Shown one piece after another: positions 8,869-25,692 of a DNA stretch of 32,814 nucleotides. The stretch lies in the IMG/VR virus record IMGVR_UViG_3300032081_000128, positions 1 through 32,814 of that record; one strand, written 5' to 3'. Origin of the DNA: a virus. The stretch's first letter is position 1. Every line of letters starts with the position of its first letter. The position numbers were made by a program, and so were the translations under genes. A model generated the notes under the pieces. The model had not been told where the DNA came from, ran no database searches, and saw only the letters and a program-made list of their open reading frames with translations.

Positions 8869-11760
8869 CTAGGGGGCTTCGGCCCCTTCTTCTTTAACTA
8901 CAGTAGTTGTTGTACCAACAGGACTACCCATTATCGCCATTGCAGTTCCAATAGAATTGTTTAACAAAGGAACCTGCATAATATGATTCCAAGCCTTCTC
9001 AACATTCTTTGCTGGATCTTCTGATATAGGCGCTGTTATCAAATCAATACCTGCCGCAGTTCCTTGTTCAATCAAACCACCCGCAGGCGCAATAGAAGTA
9101 ACAGCCCACTCATAGGGGTTAGCTTTAAATCTGTTGTACTGGTATTGCGATGTTGGTGCTTTGTTTAAAGTCATAACAGAGAGTGGTTGATCTACCAACG
9201 CTTTAAACAATAACTCCTCTCCTGTTATTTCGTCCTCTCCTCCAGAGAAAACAAAGTCACGAGCCTCATCAAGAACAGCGTAACCAACACCAGCACTGGC
9301 GATGTACAAAGCGGCATTCTTAGCTGCCTGTCCTTCGTTACCAGCTGTTAATTCATCAATTACTTTTTTACGCAGTAAAGATCTTTGTACAATAGCAAAA
9401 CCCATCAACGTATATAGAGGACGTATTACAGGGTTTGTTGACCAAGCCAAAGGTCTCCCCGCTACTGAAGTAAGCTGCTGTTGTCCTAGTCCTGCATATG
9501 CAAGCTCAGACATAAGCTTCAACTCTTTTTCTGACATGCCTTCAAGGTTTTTACCGTGTCTTCGGAAAGCATTAATGATAGTAAACCTTTCTGCTTCAGA
9601 GAAATAGTTACCCCACTTCTCGTTAAACTTTCCTTTCTTAGCTAAGTCATAGCCGTTTTCAATAACGCTATTCATTACAGCACGTTTACCTATCTTATCC
9701 ATGCCGCTGAACAACGTCCACTTCATCCCCTTCTCAAGACCTTTAGCTGCAAACCTGCTTGCTTCTCTTATCGCAGAAGGATCATCAGACATTCTACCGA
9801 CTTCATCAACAAGCTTGTTAGCAAACTCTCCTTGAGTCTGTCTATTAATACCTGTTAACTCAGGGTCTACAAAACTTTTTTGATTTCTATCAAACGCTCG
9901 TTTAGTCCCACGAATTGTAGCAGCAACTCCGTTGAGCATAGGAGATACAAAAACATCGTGAAGGTTCAACACAGCAGACTTCAACGACATCAATGTGCCG
10001 CCATAAGACAAAGTAGATATTAACTGAGCCACAGCAGGAGCGTGTTGTTGAGAACCAATAACCATGTCCTCAATAATTCTAGCACCTCTTTCAGCTACGT
10101 TGTCAGGAAGATCTTCAGAGAGGCGACGAGCTACAGCCTGAAAAGCTTCTTGGCCTGTTGGACTTTTAACACCCAAAGATCCTACATCAATACGCTTTGT
10201 TATCTCATTTAAAAAGTCGTTTTGGTTAAGTAACTTAAAGTCAGTTAAAAAAGGATTTTGATACTGCTCAATCATTTCATCAGTAGCTGCTGCCCTGTTA
10301 CGCAAAGCACGCCTAGACTGGTCCTGTTGAACTTCTAAGTAATTTTTTCTACCACGTTTTGCATACGCAGCTTTCTCACCTAGCTCTTCGATAGGTTGCA
10401 TTTGTATGTGTAATCTGTCAGTTAAAACTGAGGTTTCTTCGCCTATGTTAAAGCGATGTTCTTTAAACAACTGACCTCTAAAGTTTAAATAGTTATTGAC
10501 AGCACGTATCTCTTGACTTGAAACACCAGCGTCAGACAAACGCTTAAAGAATTGAGATCTGTTGTTGCCTTTTAAGCCACGAGAATAATCCAGCATAGCT
10601 TTAGCGGCTTCTTTATTAGTTCGCCACAGTTGGATAACAGGAACTACAGGAAGAAGATAATCATCGTAAGCTCTATTCATCTTAACGCCAGAAGACTGTG
10701 CAGCAATAGTAGCAGCTCCTGCAATCTCAGGACTTACTTTGTAGTACAACGCGTCTTCAGCAGTGTCAATAGCTTGTGTTGTTAAACCTACGTCTTTTTG
10801 AGCCTGCCTTCCAAGAGTAAAAGTTACGCGCTTAGGTGCTGTTGTCATTCCCCGCAACTCAGAAAAATCTTCTGTCTTCTGTAACTGCTTGCGTAAGTTG
10901 TATTCTACCTGCATCTGCTCCCTAGCTTTTTGAAAGGCAGTAAACTGATCATCAATTGCAGGTTTAATATCAGCTTTCTTGTCTACTTTTCCTACTCCGG
11001 GAATGTCATAACCTTCTTTGGCGTTGCCAGTGGCTCGTAAACCACCGTATGAATAACCGCCTTCAACACGTTTTACTGCGCCTCCGCTGCCATCTGGTGT
11101 GACAGATCTTGCTTCTATTTGAGGACGATAGTCATCAGTCATCTTTTGAATATCATCAGCTACTTTACCGATTGTTTCAGATTCTTTAGCGGCTGACACC
11201 AAAGCAGACGCAGCAACGGCTTCAGGAGTTTTAGTCATTCCCAAACCAGCAATGTCTTTCAAAGCAGATGAAATCTTTGCAGGATCACGAGCAACTTGAA
11301 CAGCACCGGCGCCTCCTGCCGTAGCTAAAGTAGCAGCCAAACGAGGACCAAACAAAGCGGCAGTGCGTTCTTCCATAAAGGGACGATCTAGATCAAGCGC
11401 CGTTCCTGACATCGCTTCACGAAGAGTACGAACATCCTTACCTGTTATTGCTTCGTAAGGAACACGACCAATAGAAGTGAAAGCATCAATAGTATCTACA
11501 GCAAGACCTACGCCAGCAGAAGACATTTCTTGAATACCCTCTGCTAAGTTCTCAAGCACAGTATCTTCAGCCGCTTCTAGTCTGTAAGCCGCTTCTGCCT
11601 GCTCTTGTTGTGCTTGTGTCAGCTCTGCTTCTAACGCTTTACGCTCTGGTTGTACACGTAACGCACGATAAGCATCAGCAACTGTCTGAAACTCTTCAGT
11701 GCCTTTCTTGTCTTCGTTCTCAACAAGCCAAGCAGCGTACTTATTTAACCTATCAGACAT
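8869..11760 (-). CDS. Large probable internal virion / DNA ejection protein
   Basis: A 963-residue protein, last gene of the late operon. The N-terminal 70 residues are charged and helical (about 48-60 coiled-coil-like, ELTQAQQEQAEA). Small-residue hydrophobic stretches follow (AALFGPRLAATLATAGGAGA around 134-153; a further one near residue 810), suited to membrane insertion or channel formation. The rest is mostly helical. I find no transglycosylase motif such as that of T7 gp16. Size, position after two other Gln/Ala-rich proteins, and composition fit the ejection proteins of P22-like (gp7, gp20, gp16) or T7-like (gp14-16) phages, which form a conduit across the envelope. AGGAC precedes the ATG; the upstream stop is two bases away. 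Its last codons contain the convergent terminator. Confidence 0.6.
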   Translation of the reverse strand: MSDRLNKYAAWLVENEDKKGTEEFQTVADAYRALRVQPERKALEAELTQAQQEQAEAAYRLEAAEDTVLENLAEGIQEMSSAGVGLAVDTIDAFTSIGRVPYEAITGKDVRTLREAMSGTALDLDRPFMEERTAALFGPRLAATLATAGGAGAVQVARDPAKISSALKDIAGLGMTKTPEAVAASALVSAAKESETIGKVADDIQKMTDDYRPQIEARSVTPDGSGGAVKRVEGGYSYGGLRATGNAKEGYDIPGVGKVDKKADIKPAIDDQFTAFQKAREQMQVEYNLRKQLQKTEDFSELRGMTTAPKRVTFTLGRQAQKDVGLTTQAIDTAEDALYYKVSPEIAGAATIAAQSSGVKMNRAYDDYLLPVVPVIQLWRTNKEAAKAMLDYSRGLKGNNRSQFFKRLSDAGVSSQEIRAVNNYLNFRGQLFKEHRFNIGEETSVLTDRLHIQMQPIEELGEKAAYAKRGRKNYLEVQQDQSRRALRNRAAATDEMIEQYQNPFLTDFKLLNQNDFLNEITKRIDVGSLGVKSPTGQEAFQAVARRLSEDLPDNVAERGARIIEDMVIGSQQHAPAVAQLISTLSYGGTLMSLKSAVLNLHDVFVSPMLNGVAATIRGTKRAFDRNQKSFVDPELTGINRQTQGEFANKLVDEVGRMSDDPSAIREASRFAAKGLEKGMKWTLFSGMDKIGKRAVMNSVIENGYDLAKKGKFNEKWGNYFSEAERFTIINAFRRHGKNLEGMSEKELKLMSELAYAGLGQQQLTSVAGRPLAWSTNPVIRPLYTLMGFAIVQRSLLRKKVIDELTAGNEGQAAKNAALYIASAGVGYAVLDEARDFVFSGGEDEITGEELLFKALVDQPLSVMTLNKAPTSQYQYNRFKANPYEWAVTSIAPAGGLIEQGTAAGIDLITAPISEDPAKNVEKAWNHIMQVPLLNNSIGTAMAIMGSPVGTTTTVVKEEGAEAP
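8871..8895 (+). terminator. Rho-independent terminator of the replication operon
   Basis: GGGGC (8873-8877), TTCG loop (8878-8881), GCCCC (8882-8886), extendable by G-T and A-T pairs, then a T-rich run (CTTCTTCTTT) on the + strand. C(UUCG)G is an exceptionally stable tetraloop. It starts four bases after the reductase stop and lies inside the C-terminal codons of the convergent - strand gene. The - strand tail (CTAGTTTAG) is less U-rich, so it should work best on + transcripts. Confidence 0.85.
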
Positions 11761-17986: not shown

Positions 17987-18291
17987 TACCAAGGCACGCC
18001 ATCAACAGTAACAGGATCTTTCTGTTCTGCGATGTTAGCCGCTAGGGCCGCCTCAGTAGCTTCCTGATCGACTTCTTCCCATACCCAGCCCATAACAACT
18101 TCTTCTGTTAAATCGTCGTATGGAACGAATGAGGGGTCCTCAGGGTCATATGAGAAACTGCAAGTGCCGTAAGAAGAAGCAGAGTAAGTATCTTCTCCAA
18201 CAGTTTCAGATTCAGTTACACGCCAGTGTGCGACGATAACGCCACCGTCTGATACGTGACGCTCAAGTGTTGCAATAGTCCATGTAGCCAT
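17986..18291 (-). CDS. Small conserved fibre-associated phage protein
   Basis: A 101-residue protein directly after the S74 fibre gene and coupled to it by TAATG. Features include VIVAHWRVTESE near the N-terminus, a Ser/Tyr-rich beta region, and a helical segment GWVWEEVDQEATEAALAANI, ending GVPW. I recognise this arrangement from small proteins encoded after fibre genes in marine phages (GWVW... and a final Pro-Trp), whose function is unknown. A fibre chaperone or fibre-tip component is a reasonable guess. Confidence 0.65.
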   Translation of the reverse strand: MATWTIATLERHVSDGGVIVAHWRVTESETVGEDTYSASSYGTCSFSYDPEDPSFVPYDDLTEEVVMGWVWEEVDQEATEAALAANIAEQKDPVTVDGVPW

Positions 18292-21200
18292 TAGTTAGTC
18301 TCCAGTTGTGCCACTCTGGCACGTAGTGATTGAATTTCTTTTACAAGCATAGGCACTAGCTTTGAGTAGTCTACGCCCATCATGTCGTCTGAGTCTTCTG
18401 GTACTGACACAGCCTCTGGTGCAACGCTCTGTAATTCCTGAGCAACCATGCCGTACTTCTGGTGTGACCCGTCAGCCTTCCAGTCAAACGAACGTACTTG
18501 GATAGCGTCAATGTCGTCAGAAGCAGAAGGTGCGTCTACGATGTTTTCTTTGAGGCGTTGATCTGAGGAGGTGTTGTAGGCGGTAGCGGAGCCTGACGTT
18601 ACAATGCTACCTACAACTCCATTTCCGTTTCTGAAGCGGATTGCTGTTGACGCCGAACTGCCTGTCAAAGTCGTTGTAGTAATCCCAGCTTGTCCGCCGT
18701 CTACAACTTTCACGTTTACAAAAGATTCTGATTCGCTTGTCTGACCAACCAACAAGTTGCCACTAGAGTCGATGCGGAGGCGTTCTAACTGGTTAGTAGC
18801 AAACTGCATACTGTTTGAATCATGTGCGTAATTAATGTAACCAGCATAAGTGTCGGAACCACTTGCCGAATCACCAAAGTGGATTGTGTTAGCGCCATTA
18901 GTTGGATTAGCTAACATTTGAATTACCGACTGACCAGCTGATGTGCCGCCAATGTAAGGAGTGCCTGACAGGTAAAGGTCTTTGAAGCGTGAATCTGACT
19001 TGCCTAAGTCAACGAGGTTGTCACGCAAAGCGGCAGAGCCATTACAGGGTCGGATATAACTTCCAATGTCATCGAAAAATAATCCAGTGTTTCCGCTAGT
19101 TATAAACAGCTCACCGTCACTTGTTCCGCCATCAGATAGCTTAGTACCAACGCTTCCCACGGTTGAGCCGTCTTTGTAGAAAACTGCAATAGACCCGTCA
19201 GAAGTTTCTCTGTTAAGAGACAGGACAGGATTACCGTCTCTAGTTGCCCAGAGTTGCCCATCTGCTTTTGCTTCAACGCCTACTGTGCCAATACCTGTGC
19301 CAGTCTTCCCAACCAACAAGTTGCCGCTTGCATCAAACCTAGCCATCTCCCCTGCGTTGTTATTGAACCGCAAGGCACCGCCGTTTGTAGCGTCTCTGTA
19401 GTGGATCTTTGCACCACTGTCATCGGCAGTAAAGGAAAGACGGGTGTTGTTAGTACCGTCAAACTTATAGACACGTAATTGAACGTCTGAGGCAGTGTCA
19501 ACGATATCGACCTTGACGTCTGGTGATGTTGTTCCTACGCCCAAGGCATTAGTATAAGCAGTGCCTGACATGTAGAGGTCTTTGAAGCGGTTGCTTGAGT
19601 CTCCAATATCAATCGTATTGTCAGCATCGCCGCTAGAAGTAGCTGTAGATGTCCAAGGCCAAATAGCATTAGTAGACCCAGCATCAAAGAAAATCATGCT
19701 GTCGTCTGAGCCAATAAATAATCGACTTAGTTCAGTACCAATACTACCGACTGCGGTGCCGTCTTTTTGGAACTCTAAGATAGAGCCGTCATTAGTGTTT
19801 CGACCAAGAATGTGAGTGCCACTAGCAAACGTACCGACAATTTGTCCACTAGCGTTTAACTCTGCGCCTGCTGTGGCGTTTGATGTAGTAGTCTTACCAA
19901 CCAGCAAGTTGCCGCTCGCATCTATACGCATGGCTTCTGACCAGCTAATGGCTGTGCCTGCTGTACCTGATGCGGCTTGCTGAAATTTAATTTCATTAGC
20001 GTCAAAGAATAAACGAGAGGTTCCAGCGGTGTACTTGTAGACCTCGCTGTTGTTTGTCTTGAATACATAGTTTGTGCCGACCATTCCGTCAACACCACCA
20101 GCCGAACGGCCGACAAGGTTCATGCCGCCTTGCTCGAAGTTTCTCCACGTACCGCTAGAGTTTTCTGGAGTAACGCCTACACCTACGTTCCCGCTCGCAT
20201 CTATGCGGAGGCGTTCTGTGTTGTTGGTGCCAAAGATTAAAGGATTATTTTCATAGTGATAAACATAACCATCTTCAGCACTACTTAAACCTACGAAAAG
20301 ACCGTCTGTTGATGCAGTGCCTGTTCCAGTATTTGTAATTCTTATGCCAGAAGAATCACTTGATGGCCTATGAACATGGAATACTTCTCTAGGCGTAGTA
20401 GTTCCAATAGAAACAAAACCACTAGCGTCGATACGCATGCGTTCTGCGTTGTCGCTTTTAAATACGATATTGCTATTTGCGCTTCCATTGCCTTGATCAG
20501 CAGACAAGATGAGGCTTCCGCCAGCACCATCTATCTGGGCATAAACTCCATCAGGGTTAGAGTCTTCAAGTCTTATAACAGGGTCAACAGATTTTAAATG
20601 CAAGGTTTGTGACGGACTGCTAGTACCAATACCAACATTATAGTTTTCATCAATAACAAACTTTGTAGTTCCGTTGTCTTTAATGCGAACTGCATCGTCT
20701 ACAGTGCCAGTCCCATCAGCATTATGGTTAATGTCTAACGCACGACTACTACCACTATTTGATATTTCTAGAGCATTACCAGTTGTGTTGCCTTTTGTAA
20801 TTACAAAGGCTGAAGAGGCTACATTGTTGTCAACTGTTAGCTTTTCATTACTAGCTGACCACGTTAACTTCGCAGTCGTACCCGTGTCTTCGTAGAAGCT
20901 AATGTCTCCGCCTTCCTCTGCAAGGAATATATTTTTAGTGCCTGCATCACTTGAAACAATAAAAGCTCTGTCAGTTTGGTTATTGTCGTTATCCACATCA
21001 ATGCGTAAACTGCCCGTAGATTTAATCCAGCCGCTATTAAAAAATACGTCAGTACCATCAACAGTAAGGCCGTCGCTGACCACTGTACCCGTAACGTCGA
21101 TGCCTGTGGAGGTGACAGCAACTTTTTCATTGCCTTGGTTATAAAGGCGTGTTTCTCCACCTTGAATGCCTAAGAAAAACCTAGTACCTGTGGAGTCTTC

Positions 21201-21509
21201 TAAAGAAAGGTTTTGCCCCTGTATTTGCAGGTTGCCTGTACCACCTTCAGCTATATAACTATTAGACCCATCATGATAAATCTGTAGGTCAGAGCCAGCA
21301 CCGAAGACGGCCTTGTCGTTGTCGCCAAAGTTAATGTCAGCAGTTGTTGTTAGACCTGCTGTAGTAATAACACCGTCAACCTCTAGCTTCGTTGAAGGGT
21401 TGCTAACGCCAATACCAACATTACCATCACTTTTTATTCTAAGTTTTTCATCAGTAGCAGAAAGGCTAAATATAAAATTAGCAGTGCTTCTATGATCTAT
21501 AAAATCCAT
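18291..21509 (-). CDS. Long tail fibre with C-terminal S74 self-cleaving chaperone domain
   Basis: A 1072-residue fibre. It has at least eight spaced copies of a short beta motif (R-I-D-x-S-G-N-[LV]-x-[VI]-G, for example RIDASGNLLVGKT) and a longer duplicated block ending RFKDLYLSGTPY (earlier copy RFKDLYMSGTAY). The last 93 residues are a Peptidase_S74 intramolecular chaperone: TSSDQRLKENI with Ser982 and Lys987 spaced as the Ser-Lys cleavage dyad, then YGMVAQELQSVAPEAV and a terminal coiled coil (LVKEIQSLRARVAQLE). The chaperone trimerises the fibre and cuts itself off before Ser982. The N-terminus (MDFIDHRSTANF) starts directly inside the repeat region with no recognisable tail-attachment domain. 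A strong AGGAG site supports this start. Confidence 0.88.
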   Translation of the reverse strand: MDFIDHRSTANFIFSLSATDEKLRIKSDGNVGIGVSNPSTKLEVDGVITTAGLTTTADINFGDNDKAVFGAGSDLQIYHDGSNSYIAEGGTGNLQIQGQNLSLEDSTGTRFFLGIQGGETRLYNQGNEKVAVTSTGIDVTGTVVSDGLTVDGTDVFFNSGWIKSTGSLRIDVDNDNNQTDRAFIVSSDAGTKNIFLAEEGGDISFYEDTGTTAKLTWSASNEKLTVDNNVASSAFVITKGNTTGNALEISNSGSSRALDINHNADGTGTVDDAVRIKDNGTTKFVIDENYNVGIGTSSPSQTLHLKSVDPVIRLEDSNPDGVYAQIDGAGGSLILSADQGNGSANSNIVFKSDNAERMRIDASGFVSIGTTTPREVFHVHRPSSDSSGIRITNTGTGTASTDGLFVGLSSAEDGYVYHYENNPLIFGTNNTERLRIDASGNVGVGVTPENSSGTWRNFEQGGMNLVGRSAGGVDGMVGTNYVFKTNNSEVYKYTAGTSRLFFDANEIKFQQAASGTAGTAISWSEAMRIDASGNLLVGKTTTSNATAGAELNASGQIVGTFASGTHILGRNTNDGSILEFQKDGTAVGSIGTELSRLFIGSDDSMIFFDAGSTNAIWPWTSTATSSGDADNTIDIGDSSNRFKDLYMSGTAYTNALGVGTTSPDVKVDIVDTASDVQLRVYKFDGTNNTRLSFTADDSGAKIHYRDATNGGALRFNNNAGEMARFDASGNLLVGKTGTGIGTVGVEAKADGQLWATRDGNPVLSLNRETSDGSIAVFYKDGSTVGSVGTKLSDGGTSDGELFITSGNTGLFFDDIGSYIRPCNGSAALRDNLVDLGKSDSRFKDLYLSGTPYIGGTSAGQSVIQMLANPTNGANTIHFGDSASGSDTYAGYINYAHDSNSMQFATNQLERLRIDSSGNLLVGQTSESESFVNVKVVDGGQAGITTTTLTGSSASTAIRFRNGNGVVGSIVTSGSATAYNTSSDQRLKENIVDAPSASDDIDAIQVRSFDWKADGSHQKYGMVAQELQSVAPEAVSVPEDSDDMMGVDYSKLVPMLVKEIQSLRARVAQLETN

Positions 21510-21522
21510 TTGTGTTCTCCTG

Positions 21523-24500
21523 CTATGACCAAGCTACTGTCAGTTTATTGTTTACGCCTTCCATTACGTTTGTGACGTTAGAAGCTACTGAAACGTAACC
21601 AGCATTAGACGTTCCTGTTTTAACAAGACAGCTATTACCGTTAATAACACCGCTAAGAATATTGCTAGGAGTAGTAGGATTAACATAGATACAAGGTTCT
21701 GCTGCATCTGTTTTAGCTGTGTTACCAATAACTTGAAAGTGCTGTACGTCTTCAATAGTAATAGTTCTTTCAGTGTTGTTGTTACTAATAATTGCGTTGT
21801 TTGTGCCGTCTACTCTAGTAACGCCTTCAACCAAACCGTTGCCTTGTATTTTTACAGAGGATAGCCCTGTTACATTAGCATTAGCAAAAGAAATTCCCCC
21901 ACCAATATGTGCGTTGTCACTAACTACAATCTTAGCTGTAGCTCCTTGAGACAAAGAGGTTATGTAGTCTATGTACTTATTGCCTACTACATTAAAGCTT
22001 TCTGTAAGCTTAGTAGTGTTTGTTATGTTTCCACCAATGTATGAGTTAACAATATTAACGTTGTGTGTTTCATCAGGAATAAACAATCTAGCAGTACCTG
22101 TTCCTGTACCTGCGCCAGTTGCAATAAAGACTGTACCAACATTACTATCGGCCGCGCCAATAGCTGTAAAGTCTGTAGTACCTGTAGTAACTATTTTATA
22201 AGTATTGGTAGCACGTATTTCGTCTGCGTTTTTAATTGCACCTTCTGCATTGGCTGCTCTAAACGGAAGAACATCACCAGTTAAGTACACATCATCAATT
22301 GTTAAGTTATTTGGGTTATCAACCTTAATACCACCACTAGCTAAGAAACCATGGGCTAAACGCACGTCTTGTTGTATCTGAGAACCGGGCAGTAACAAAA
22401 AGCTAATAGCGTCTGCTGGGTTTCTACAGGTACCTTCTACATGGAAGTTTGTAATTGAACATGATGTGTCGTGTTGACTAGAGCCTCGTATAAGCTTATT
22501 TACATAAGCAGTAGAAGCGTCTGTTTTTAAGAACACATTGTTAAAGAAAGCTTTGTTACCGTTAGTTAAATAAATCTGAAGCAGTGAGTTATCTTGTCCA
22601 GTTGTGTCAATAGTCGCTCGTGCTGTTATGTCTACAATCAGATTGTTTACATTTGCTTCTTCACAGCCCTCAATCCAAAACGCACCAGACGGGTTGTTAG
22701 AAAAAGACTGAGTAGAATCATTAATAACTGTGATGTTACTAGCGTTAAACTTTTTGTTGCGGTCAGCAGTTACACCACACGAAGCATAGTTTTTACAGAT
22801 AGCGTTAGATATACTGTACTCGCCTCCAATAGCAAGGAAGTTAAACGATCCCTGCGGAGCTGCTGTAGTAGACGAAAAGTCCATCGGTGAGCCATCAACA
22901 TTAAATGTAGCAGGCAATAGTCCTACGTCTTCTGCGTAAACATCAGAAACAATAGTTCTGCCTTTATGAGCAGTAATGTTGTTACTTCCGTCAAAGACAG
23001 CCTGATAAACTGCAAAGCTTTGGAACGACAAGTTCTTAAACACACATCCCTGAATAATTGTAGTGCCGTATGAGTTTACGCGTACTGCTGCAATACCGTG
23101 ATGGTTTTCAAAACGACAGTTAGTTATGTGCGTAGTAGTTTCTTCGTTGTTAGCATTTACTTTTAAAAACGCGCTAGGCGTTGGCTCAATAGTATCATAA
23201 CCGCCAAAGTTAGTAGTGGTATCAGTCCACGGCTCATTGCCGACCTTGTAGTCTCCACGACCGCCATCAAGAAAAATATTGTCTAAAGCAATTGTCATGG
23301 CTGTTGTGCCTGATCCGGCATCGCAGTTGAATCTACCTTGGTCTGAGTATGACGTACCTAACTTAAACTTAAAGTTACGCATACGACAGAACGCACCTTG
23401 GTCAACATCAATGGTTGTTGTAATCAAGTACGTTTTATTACCACCGTCTAACCAAGCGCCTGATACAGCTACAGAGTCCATTGCCGCTTGTAGTTCTACC
23501 GTATCGTCAAGATCGGCTGTGCCTGTACCTGTTCCTGCGCCTGTAGCAACAAATACTGTACCTACATTACTATTTGTTGCTCCAATTGAAGTAAAGTCTG
23601 TACTGCCTGTCGAAACAATTTGATACCTCTGTCCAGTAACAAAAGAACCAGCGGTTACTGTTTGAACACCTTTTGCACCAAAGGCAGCAGCAGAAGCAGC
23701 TAAGTGTACTTCACCAGAAGTTACAATAAAGTCTGCTGAGTCAAAAGAAGCAACGCCTTTATTAGATGTTGATGCGTTTTCACCAGCAATTGTTACAGTG
23801 TTACCAGTAGCAGAAGTGTCAATACCTTCACCACCAACAATGCTTAATACTTCTGAGTCAAGATCAATGGCAATAGTGCCACCGTCAGTTGTAACATCTA
23901 GATCTTGAGCAGTGACTTGGCTGTCTACGTATGACTTAATAGATTGTTGAGTAGCCAGCGCAGTCGCACTGTTGCTAGACATATTGTCTTGGTCAAGGAT
24001 ATCTGTAACTGTTACTGAGCCTGTACCAGACAAACCATTAAACTCTACAGTTCCTGCAACGTCAAGACTTGTAGCATTTACAGAAGTAAACGAACCAGCC
24101 GCAGTAGAAGAACCACCAATGACAGCACCGTCAATAGTACCACCATTGATGTCTGGAGTGTTTACGTCAGGAGACGTGATAGTTTTATTAGTAAGTGTTT
24201 GTGTACCTGTCAGCGTTGCAACGGTAGAATCAATATTAAAAGTTACTTCATTGCCTGAACCAGCAGTATCAATACCAGTTCCACCTGTAAGCAATAAAGT
24301 TTCTGAGTCTAGGTCAATGCTTAACGCACCACCTGAGTCAGCTTGGAAGTCTAGGTCTTGTGCAGTTACTTGTGAGTCAACGTAAGCTTTTACGGACTGC
24401 TGTGTAGGAACCAAAGTTGCGCTATCGGACGACATATCGTCTTCATCAACAAACGCAGTGATGTCAATAGTTCCATCGGAAATAGTTTCAAAGGTCAACG

Positions 24501-24663
24501 TACCTGTAAAGGTCGGACCTGCTAAATCAGACTTACTTGCAATAGCTACTGCTATATTATCAAACTCAACTTCAAACTCAGATCCACGTATAATTTTATC
24601 GGGATCGCCTGTGTTTAAAGTATCCTTTACTGCAAAGTCTGTAGTCTTAGTATAGTTCGACAT
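21523..24663 (-). CDS. Tailspike: modular N-terminus and right-handed beta-helix receptor-binding body
   Basis: A 1046-residue protein. The ATG at 24663 (AGGAC upstream) gives MSNYTKTTDFAVKDTL...IIRGSEFEVEFDNI, a typical virion-attachment start; an ATG at 24711 would lie within the capsid terminator and add a non-homologous leader. Two related modules follow, at about 74-144 and 225-290 (DDMSSDSATL...TQQSVKAYVDSQVTAQDLD and its copy), then a 38-residue GTGTGTA module (about 344-382). A beta-helix body starts near 383 (ELQAAMDSV, GNKTYLITTTIDVDQG) with many N-rich rungs. A second GTGTGTA module (about 821-859) interrupts it before the last beta-rich part. The body probably binds or degrades host surface polysaccharide; catalytic residues cannot be read from sequence. 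Confidence 0.82.
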   Translation of the reverse strand: MSNYTKTTDFAVKDTLNTGDPDKIIRGSEFEVEFDNIAVAIASKSDLAGPTFTGTLTFETISDGTIDITAFVDEDDMSSDSATLVPTQQSVKAYVDSQVTAQDLDFQADSGGALSIDLDSETLLLTGGTGIDTAGSGNEVTFNIDSTVATLTGTQTLTNKTITSPDVNTPDINGGTIDGAVIGGSSTAAGSFTSVNATSLDVAGTVEFNGLSGTGSVTVTDILDQDNMSSNSATALATQQSIKSYVDSQVTAQDLDVTTDGGTIAIDLDSEVLSIVGGEGIDTSATGNTVTIAGENASTSNKGVASFDSADFIVTSGEVHLAASAAAFGAKGVQTVTAGSFVTGQRYQIVSTGSTDFTSIGATNSNVGTVFVATGAGTGTGTADLDDTVELQAAMDSVAVSGAWLDGGNKTYLITTTIDVDQGAFCRMRNFKFKLGTSYSDQGRFNCDAGSGTTAMTIALDNIFLDGGRGDYKVGNEPWTDTTTNFGGYDTIEPTPSAFLKVNANNEETTTHITNCRFENHHGIAAVRVNSYGTTIIQGCVFKNLSFQSFAVYQAVFDGSNNITAHKGRTIVSDVYAEDVGLLPATFNVDGSPMDFSSTTAAPQGSFNFLAIGGEYSISNAICKNYASCGVTADRNKKFNASNITVINDSTQSFSNNPSGAFWIEGCEEANVNNLIVDITARATIDTTGQDNSLLQIYLTNGNKAFFNNVFLKTDASTAYVNKLIRGSSQHDTSCSITNFHVEGTCRNPADAISFLLLPGSQIQQDVRLAHGFLASGGIKVDNPNNLTIDDVYLTGDVLPFRAANAEGAIKNADEIRATNTYKIVTTGTTDFTAIGAADSNVGTVFIATGAGTGTGTARLFIPDETHNVNIVNSYIGGNITNTTKLTESFNVVGNKYIDYITSLSQGATAKIVVSDNAHIGGGISFANANVTGLSSVKIQGNGLVEGVTRVDGTNNAIISNNNTERTITIEDVQHFQVIGNTAKTDAAEPCIYVNPTTPSNILSGVINGNSCLVKTGTSNAGYVSVASNVTNVMEGVNNKLTVAWS
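22085..22200. repeat. GTGTGTA module, copy 2 (tailspike)
   Basis: Encodes YKIVTTGTTDFTAIGAADSN followed by VGTVFIATGAGTGTGTARL on the - strand. It pairs with the copy at 23515-23630, which encodes YQIVSTGSTDFTSIGATNSN and VGTVFVATGAGTGTGTADL. The two are also clearly alike at the DNA level, so they derive from one duplicated or captured module. Confidence 0.85.
23515..23630. repeat. GTGTGTA module, copy 1 (tailspike)
   Basis: First copy of the duplicated module, at about residues 344-382, between the N-terminal linker modules and the beta-helix. The copy at 22085-22200 is 1.4 kb further along the gene. Confidence 0.85.
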
Positions 24664-24681
24664 CTGTAAGTCCTGTTGCAG

Positions 24682-24722
24682 AGAAAAAGAAAGGGAAAGA
24701 AAAGGGGCCATTGCTGACCCCT
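24682..24722 (-). terminator. Rho-independent terminator after the major capsid gene
   Basis: On the - strand: AGGGG TC (from 24722), a six-base AGCAAT loop, then GG CCCCT (to 24703), giving seven pairs including one G-T, followed by a U-rich run (TTTCTTTCCCTTTCTTTTTC) to 24682. It begins 8 bases after the capsid stop. Partial readthrough would supply the tail genes while capsid transcripts remain most abundant, as with the terminator after T7 gene 10. Confidence 0.85.
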
Positions 24723-24729
24723 ATTGGAC

Positions 24730-25692
24730 TTATGCGTCGTATACAGCTAGTACCAAACCAGCTTCAGGACGGTATACCTGAACGCCGTAGAGAGTGTCAG
24801 CAGTGTACAGCGTTGAGAGGTACTCCTGCTTGTACTGAGTCTGTGAACGTACAGACATCTGCTCTGCGTGTACAAGAGCTTCTTTTTGCATGAGGATACA
24901 ACCACGTACATTGGACTCAAGTGTTGGGCAGTTAGATGAAACGTAAACGTCTACACCGTAAAGGTTGCCGATAAGACCAGTGTTTACAGTCTGTCCTGAT
25001 ACGAAGTCAGAAGACGAGAACCGTGGAGTACCCATAATGGTGTTACGTACTGCAGGAGGAACAATAATGCAACGTCCGTCCATTGGTACGTCAGCATCGT
25101 CTAACTTTTGGATTGCTAAACGGAAACCGTCATCAGTAAAGTCGTCACCTGATGTAGTAGAACCTACAGCAAAAACGTCAAGACCTGAAGTTGCACCAAA
25201 AGAGTAGCTGTTGCTGTTGACCCAATCAGCACCAGAAGGAGCAGCAAGGTCAAGAGTACCGTCACCAAAACCAGTAGCAGCATTCATAAGGTCAGTGTCA
25301 ACCTTAAGTGCCAACTGATAACCAGCATCTTCAGTGTAGAACTGACGGAGGCTGTTAAGTGCTTGTACTTCTACGATGTCTTCGATAAAACGTGAGTACT
25401 CGAAGTGACGATCAACAGAAATCTGCAATTCACCTTCTACGTTTGCTTGGATGTTGACAGCAGTGTCAGCAACCTTAGCAGAAGCAGCGCCACGGATGGG
25501 CTTAGGAATGTGAATTACATCGCCTTTCTTACCTGTCATTGGCAGCTTCTTAACAAGCGGAGCCATCTTCAGGTTCTTTTGATATGCAGCAATTACTTCG
25601 TCACTCCAGATTTCTGGAATAAAAGTAGCAGCAGCAGTTTTGTTGACGATACTTCCGCCGCCAACCGTACCGGGATAAGTTTGAGTAGCCAT
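24730..25692 (-). CDS. Major capsid protein
   Basis: A 320-residue coat protein, size and pattern typical of HK97-fold podovirus/marine phage capsids. Early segment FIPEIWSDEVIAAYQKNLKM then KKGDVIHIPKPIRGAASAKV (N-arm and E-loop); IQANVEGELQISVDRHFEYS (P-domain strand); a long helix region ending KVDTDLMNAATG; and a C-terminal A-domain with GRCIIVPPAVRNTIMG and LIGNLYGVDVYVSSNCP. It has a strong AGGAG site. It lies after the scaffold gene and before a strong terminator, the usual capsid position. Confidence 0.92.
   Translation of the reverse strand: MATQTYPGTVGGGSIVNKTAAATFIPEIWSDEVIAAYQKNLKMAPLVKKLPMTGKKGDVIHIPKPIRGAASAKVADTAVNIQANVEGELQISVDRHFEYSRFIEDIVEVQALNSLRQFYTEDAGYQLALKVDTDLMNAATGFGDGTLDLAAPSGADWVNSNSYSFGATSGLDVFAVGSTTSGDDFTDDGFRLAIQKLDDADVPMDGRCIIVPPAVRNTIMGTPRFSSSDFVSGQTVNTGLIGNLYGVDVYVSSNCPTLESNVRGCILMQKEALVHAEQMSVRSQTQYKQEYLSTLYTADTLYGVQVYRPEAGLVLAVYDA

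Follow-up and report, generated by a model that had tools for sequence, protein, structure and literature searches.

Phage Ig-like domains are promiscuous and, according to the survey of Fraser and colleagues as related in PMC7602432, occur in proteins of the tail fibre, baseplate, major tail and major head and include insertion domains of coat proteins; the same account states that they are thought to aid adhesion through carbohydrates (PMC7602432). Rickettsia palindromic elements are outlined in PMC10969869 as palindromic DNA, coding inserts of ~150 bp that lie in frame in unrelated genes and have been reported in metabolic genes. For phage receptor-binding proteins, it is reported that tailspike parts recombine, with N-terminal adaptors and bodies being shuffled (PMC10684548).

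The locus described here lies in IMG/VR record IMGVR_UViG_3300032081_000128, the whole 32,814-nucleotide stretch of which was analysed and is referred to below as the window. It encodes a tailspike-like protein with two copies of a small module which, like Ig-like domains as presented in the above account, is found across several virion protein classes (tube, sheath, tip J, head and others). The module, however, measures 47 residues as against the Ig sandwich of 7–9 strands, gave neither a Big/Ig match in Pfam nor a fold match in the PDB, and is nearly always internal to its frame here. The phage Ig-like domain would be the best analogy by manner of working and not by membership, the sequences being unrelated. 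With Rickettsia palindromic elements, as outlined in the source cited, the module shares its nature as a short in-frame insert with empty sites in relatives, whereas its copies have no palindrome in common, its conservation is at the protein level and its hosts are virion proteins. In contrast to the mosaicism outlined for receptor-binding proteins, the mini-domain is inserted in loops and moves independently of the junction between adaptor and body.

A repeated module in the window tailspike

The tailspike-like protein (1062 aa; window 24711-21523, minus strand) has an N-terminal region matching phrog_892, a tail fibre family (E 1.3e-32), and a putative beta-helix body (residues 402-1062; 21526-23508, minus strand) common to 22 further IMG/VR alleles, near-identical copies excluded. 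An AF2 model of the body built from nine sequences was beta-rich with a repeated strand pattern (mean pLDDT 64), and its top Foldseek matches were beta-helix enzymes and phage tailspikes, including CBA120 TSP1 (4ojl) and Sf6 (2vbm), at E 2e-3 or weaker, with none at E<=0.001 and query-normalised TM-scores mostly below 0.3. The protein resembles pectate-lyase-like beta-helix tailspikes in its GDGxTDDT motif and repeated beta-strand pattern, but the modules are extras to that fold; both had a pLDDT of about 40-60 in this model, too weak to place them.

The core of copy 1, YQIVSTGSTDFTSIGATNSNVGTVFVATGAGTGTGTA, lies at 23515-23625 and that of copy 2, YKIVTTGTTDFTAIGAADSNVGTVFIATGAGTGTGTA, at 22090-22200, both on the minus strand, in direct orientation and 1425 nt apart. 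They are identical at 30/37 residues and 87/111 nucleotides, as the sequence-only reading had recognised in reporting the same module twice in one tailspike. Counted from the first ATG, the cores are residues 363-399 and 838-874; counted from Met17 (MSNYTK...) they are 347-383 and 822-858, close to the ~344-382 and ~821-859 of that reading. The best 37-residue match to copy 1 was 13/37 among 500 shuffles of the rest of the tailspike, by which chance likeness of the two copies is excluded, and 9-11/37 in three other window proteins. A search of the whole 32814-base record found only these two copies. The 38-residue unit drawn initially captured a real repeat and was too short, since with relatives the module extends over ~47 residues from TAGSFVTG: copy 1 then covers residues 353-399 (23515-23655, minus strand; profile search) and copy 2, the start of which is divergent, residues 829-874 (22090-22227, minus strand; profile search and allele alignment). 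The proposed bracketing of the body holds for copy 1, which precedes the beta-helix and sits exactly at its onset, GDGxTDDT, which we take to be the helix-start motif of beta-helix tailspikes; copy 2 is in a body loop with 188 further residues of shared body downstream. The pair encloses ~430 residues. The neighbouring gene (18291-21509, minus strand), which contains internal direct repeats measuring 60-80 nt, encodes a module-free 1072-aa tail fibre with a Peptidase_S74 endosialidase chaperone at its C-terminus. Elsewhere in the window, a protein of 963 aa (8869-11760, minus strand), which matched nothing in PHROGs and nothing credible in Pfam, adjoins a ribonucleotide reductase gene on the opposite strand.

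An initial IMG/VR search with copy 1 gave 134 relatives, the best 80 of which were taken on, and a second scan with a 33-row alignment gave at least 443 confirmed relatives; the module is thus present in hundreds of IMG/VR contigs. GTDB genomes contributed 19 loci, the majority on MAG contigs, and most of the collection is uncultured. At a cut-off of E 1e-3, 282/293 hits were kept; L001/L002 (the window itself) and ORFs under 50 or 60 aa were also left out of the counts. These 282 modules lie in 194 ORFs across 236 sources, some contigs being present in several copies; ORF and site counts include such copies, as some loci are one contig (e.g. L004, L081, L160, L243). One module was found in 142 ORFs and two to seven in 52. 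Forty whole virus records, picked as carriers, each had at least one match and at most 8 (G021), the listed matches being stop-free. Giant phage ORFs of 5341-6481 aa were observed in six of the records (L088, L090, L171, L172, L178 and L182 in G005, G007, G020, G021, G024 and G027), which hold 2 to 8 modules each, some in tandem.

Iterated profile searches of the relatives' loci gave the consensus TAGSFVTGxxYxIxxVGTTDFTxIGAxxNTVGxxFxATGAGSGTGTA, in which G, A, F, Y, I and T make up most of the near-invariant positions, with a core formed by Y11, I13, F21, I24 and F35. The near-invariant glycines and alanines and the aromatic and aliphatic core residues point to a compact fold. The module has no conserved charged, histidine or cysteine positions such as mark a typical active site, and nothing in it resembled a catalytic centre. 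AF2 modelling of the isolated module (55 aa) gave a pLDDT of 82.4 and a pTM of 0.61, with a few short strands and one helical turn, and Foldseek against BFVD recovered this fold within predicted proteins from uncultured phages and viruses, with seven matches at E<=0.001, all phage or virus, superposing on the module at 0.4-1.1 Å. No match was found in the PDB, either by fold (two hits, E above 7) or by sequence profile (best E 0.15), VIA-align returned none at Z 2 or more among 3 chains, and profile searches gave a best E of 0.038 in PHROGs, chance-like matches in NCBIfam and, for 33 modules in Pfam, only the chance-like YjbE, Glucokinase and Phosphatase. Membership of a known protein family was rejected on these weak matches to PDB sequences, PHROGs, Pfam and NCBIfam. 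A tblastn search of INPHARED with the consensus and a long variant returned nothing, the low-complexity filter masking glycine/threonine-rich queries; three INPHARED records (S-TIM54 and two Manatee Spring records) were matched and, given the masking, these numbers are no sign of rarity in cultured phages. In cyanophage S-TIM54, the module-like stretch lies in a protein annotated as virion structural. In one library of open-access literature, none of the listed titles and abstract openings described the module, and no paper was found to contain its motif strings. Together, the module is apparently a previously undescribed small protein domain of ~47 residues. Longer variants occur at residues 301-357 of the L074 ORF 1-4101 (WNTIAGTSG-type) and in L264 after NFKFR (WTDIGYDDSDG-type), which suggests that the superfamily is wider than the 47-residue form counted here.

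Filled and empty insertion sites

Neither module occurs in the tailspike alleles L003, L006, L008 and L010; L004 carries copy 1 alone and L011 copy 2 alone. Between the window and L003 proteins, identity is 97-100% for the greater part of residues 58-342, falling to 70-87% near 163-237, and mainly 83-100% for residues 403-700; at site 1, the module alone intervenes. DNA identity is 99% immediately upstream of this site and 87-90% downstream. In the empty allele the sequence is GA-VGDGST-DDT and in the filled one GA-KGVQTV-[47 aa]-DL-DDT, so that the insertion cassette (codons 347-401; 23509-23673, minus strand) stands in place of the VGDGST of L003. A second filled/empty pair is provided by L004 and L008, the flanks of which are 94-96% identical in amino acids.

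The 23-allele alignment of the body family, from which near-identical contigs had been removed by hand, showed modules at four different sites. The helix-start site is filled in 4/23 alleles (the window, L004, L085 and, with a divergent module, L264), the site after NFKFR in L264, and the site after GNEPW in L257 and L258. Six of the 16 alleles reaching the site-2 loop are filled there, the window, L011, L241 and L242 with a single module and L257 and L258 with a tandem pair; the window module lies after FRAANA and the L257/L258 pair before it, which suggests independent insertion events. Across all carriers, and by comparison within the collected loci, a strict empty homologue was found for 38/183 testable sites, in 9/66 host clusters. 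As judged from these alignments, homologues without the module at the same site show it to be an in-frame insertion into putative loops, and such presence and absence at homologous sites is direct evidence for the mobile unit in unrelated tail proteins that had been suggested from the window alone.

Carrier proteins and possible role of the module

With modules masked, the carrier ORFs fell into 74 sequence clusters at E 1e-10; several of these clusters are distantly related, with phrog_3287 recurring among them, and the number of independent hosts is therefore 74 at most. Fifty carriers were scanned against PHROGs, of which 27 gave a match and 23 did not; tail, head or connector families were among the matches of 25/27, while 2/27 matched families of unknown function only. 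Named carriers include tip J and tail fibres (L084, L061), minor tail L (L206), tail tube (L079), sheath (L198), major head (L213), connector and head closure (L096, L200, L162), distal tail (L164, L136), baseplate wedge (L129), tail appendage (L235) and tailspikes (L075, L221), to which Pfam adds tail tube PF18906, minor tail L PF05100 and connector PF05135. The top PHROG label of carrier L194 is 'amidase, lysis', followed by virion structural and head closure, and the window protein at 13917-15431 matches the same three families. Only 1/282 modules lies within 25 aa of the frame start and 7/282 within 25 aa of the frame end. The module is not strictly a virion part, because surface or secreted proteins of bacteria contain it too: a PATR/YDG autotransporter-like protein in an open frame of 5089 aa (L157, isolate Limnohabitans radicicola JUR4), an Ig-repeat protein and a multicopper oxidase with fn3 (L154, L155). 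Surface exposure is probably the common denominator of the carriers.

The module is most probably a small autonomous domain of ~47 residues that undergoes promiscuous in-frame insertion into loops of virion surface proteins. It would fold as an independent globule with adjacent ends on the tip of a loop, and its role would be to decorate the particle surface. The proteins that carry it assemble with different symmetries, and its occurrence in proteins of the head, tube, sheath and spike speaks against a function bound to a single symmetry. It is tentatively put forward, by analogy with Ig-like domains, that the module may be a weak, broad adhesion domain; otherwise it could act as a stabilising or spacing knob. 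A mobile domain without a ligand, acting as a neutral or solely mechanical knob for spacing or solubility, is a possible, if somewhat doubtful, alternative: it would fit near-invariant positions that are of the fold-keeping kind, without typical active-site residues, and insertion in hosts of differing assembly symmetry, whereas the recurrent independent gain in virion proteins and the adhesin-like bacterial carriers suggest a benefit at the surface.

Probable routes of movement and possible meaning for phage virions

Mobility of this kind could also reflect selfish coding DNA resembling Rickettsia palindromic elements, which would transpose in frame while the peptide is merely tolerated. In favour of such an element are insertions in frame at numerous positions in numerous genes, polymorphism for presence and absence, and multi-copy records with up to 8 matches. 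Codon and neighbour tests were run on ungapped 47-residue modules of at least 35 bits (164 by distinct DNA, 157 by distinct protein), a set outside which window copy 2, with 46 aligned residues, falls. Between host clusters, the same codon was used for the same amino acid at a frequency of 0.345, as against 0.325 expected; modules in different hosts averaged 62% amino acid identity, and DNA identity between modules of different host proteins was at most about 73% (103/141 nt, within the listing of the ten best protein pairs). Synonymous sites are thus not conserved between hosts, so it is the protein that is under selection. Copy 1 contains an imperfect 14-nt inverted repeat (23542-23584; 93%, 15-nt gap) that is absent from copy 2, so the copies share no palindrome. 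With near-random synonymous positions, no common palindrome, strong amino acid conservation and identifiable hosts that were virion or surface proteins in the scans, palindromic selfish DNA was rejected, and a selfish element in general is regarded as improbable. An RNA element was also rejected, there being no Rfam match in window 21500-24750.

The two window copies use the same codon at 16/30 shared residues (12.8 expected), and in multi-module ORFs the nearest relative lay in the same ORF for only 4/51 modules; on both counts a recent internal duplication was rejected. By this codon and neighbour evidence, the window's two copies would be separate acquisitions, or at least not the product of a recent duplication.

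The sequence-only reading had further proposed that the pair is a recombination anchor, each copy supplying homology by which the body is swapped between phages, in which case breakpoints in related alleles should cluster at the modules. Two direct copies do bracket the body, and recombination between tailspike N-termini and bodies does take place where copy 1 sits. The longest exact DNA match between the copies is, however, 13 nt, and a crossover between direct copies would delete the body and not replace it. L004 has an L008 background (94-95% nucleotide identity, codons 261-351) with a window-like cassette (92%) and some 30 codons beyond. Over codons 403-440, bounds set after inspection, its informative sites are 20 window-like to 4 L008-like, compared with 46 to 207 elsewhere in a compared stretch that itself opens at codon 235 with a window-like run (Fisher p 1.4e-10). 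From this pattern of sites, copy 1 appears clearly to have been exchanged between two tailspike alleles as a patch of ~250 nt, the body remaining in place, and this is the one clear case of transfer; since L003 is also 90% identical to L004 downstream, the donor may be any allele of the window/L003 type and not necessarily the window phage. The left edge of this patch coincides with that of the cassette, and is the sole breakpoint of the kind an anchor predicts. Module 2 (codons 829-874) lies well inside a tract of the window resembling L011/L241 (codons ~716 to ~970; approximately 21802-22566, minus strand), so that the tract breakpoints are not at the module. For codons 828-874, the 23-row alignment gives 67% nucleotide identity between the window and L011, a value arising from gaps shifted by one column; in an earlier codon alignment, the 37-residue core showed no difference in protein and almost none in DNA.

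At the helix start, the body is preceded by one of three N-terminal groups, with the module present at the junction in 3/7, 0/11 and 1/5 of their alleles; the junction is used without it in 19/23. Neighbouring module pairs are rarely wide, with 5/88 more than 300 aa apart and 55/88 within 60 aa. Bodies therefore vary while breakpoints fall largely elsewhere than at the modules, and the few shared nucleotides, the module-free junctions and the rarity of wide pairs further indicate that the modules are passengers and not anchors; a role as anchor is considered highly unlikely. An ancestral internal repeat, needed as a structural pair for the tailspike trimer, would account for two copies in one protein and is scarcely credible given same-body alleles that lack both (L003, L006, L008, L010 and others) or have one only.

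In L010, L012, L013, L257 and L259, the beta-helix body of the window is fused to a tip-J/fibronectin-like protein that holds an empty DYPAQ site as in gpJ-type carriers. From these fusions, the body seems to cross between different tail types.

For the mobile loop domain favoured here, new sites would be colonised by rare illegitimate recombination and then kept by selection, and filled sites would spread through ordinary homologous exchange via the flanking host sequence. It is suggested, tentatively, that the module is a very small, protein-selected mobile domain of phages and some bacteria, below the size of any Ig-like decoration and carried in loops of nearly every exposed protein of the particle or cell surface, regained at the same loops and probably serving attachment to cells or particles in water. 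If so, a common and so far unnamed feature of the virions of uncultured phages would have been recognised, and annotation would improve for stretches that now fall outside Pfam, PHROGs and NCBIfam. The mini-domain would also mark insert-tolerant loops in capsids, tubes, sheaths and spikes, where it would be gained repeatedly. The window/L003 and L004/L008 pairs are natural alleles differing mainly by one module, and because such filled and empty alleles exist, the question of why phages keep adding surface domains to their structural proteins becomes testable.
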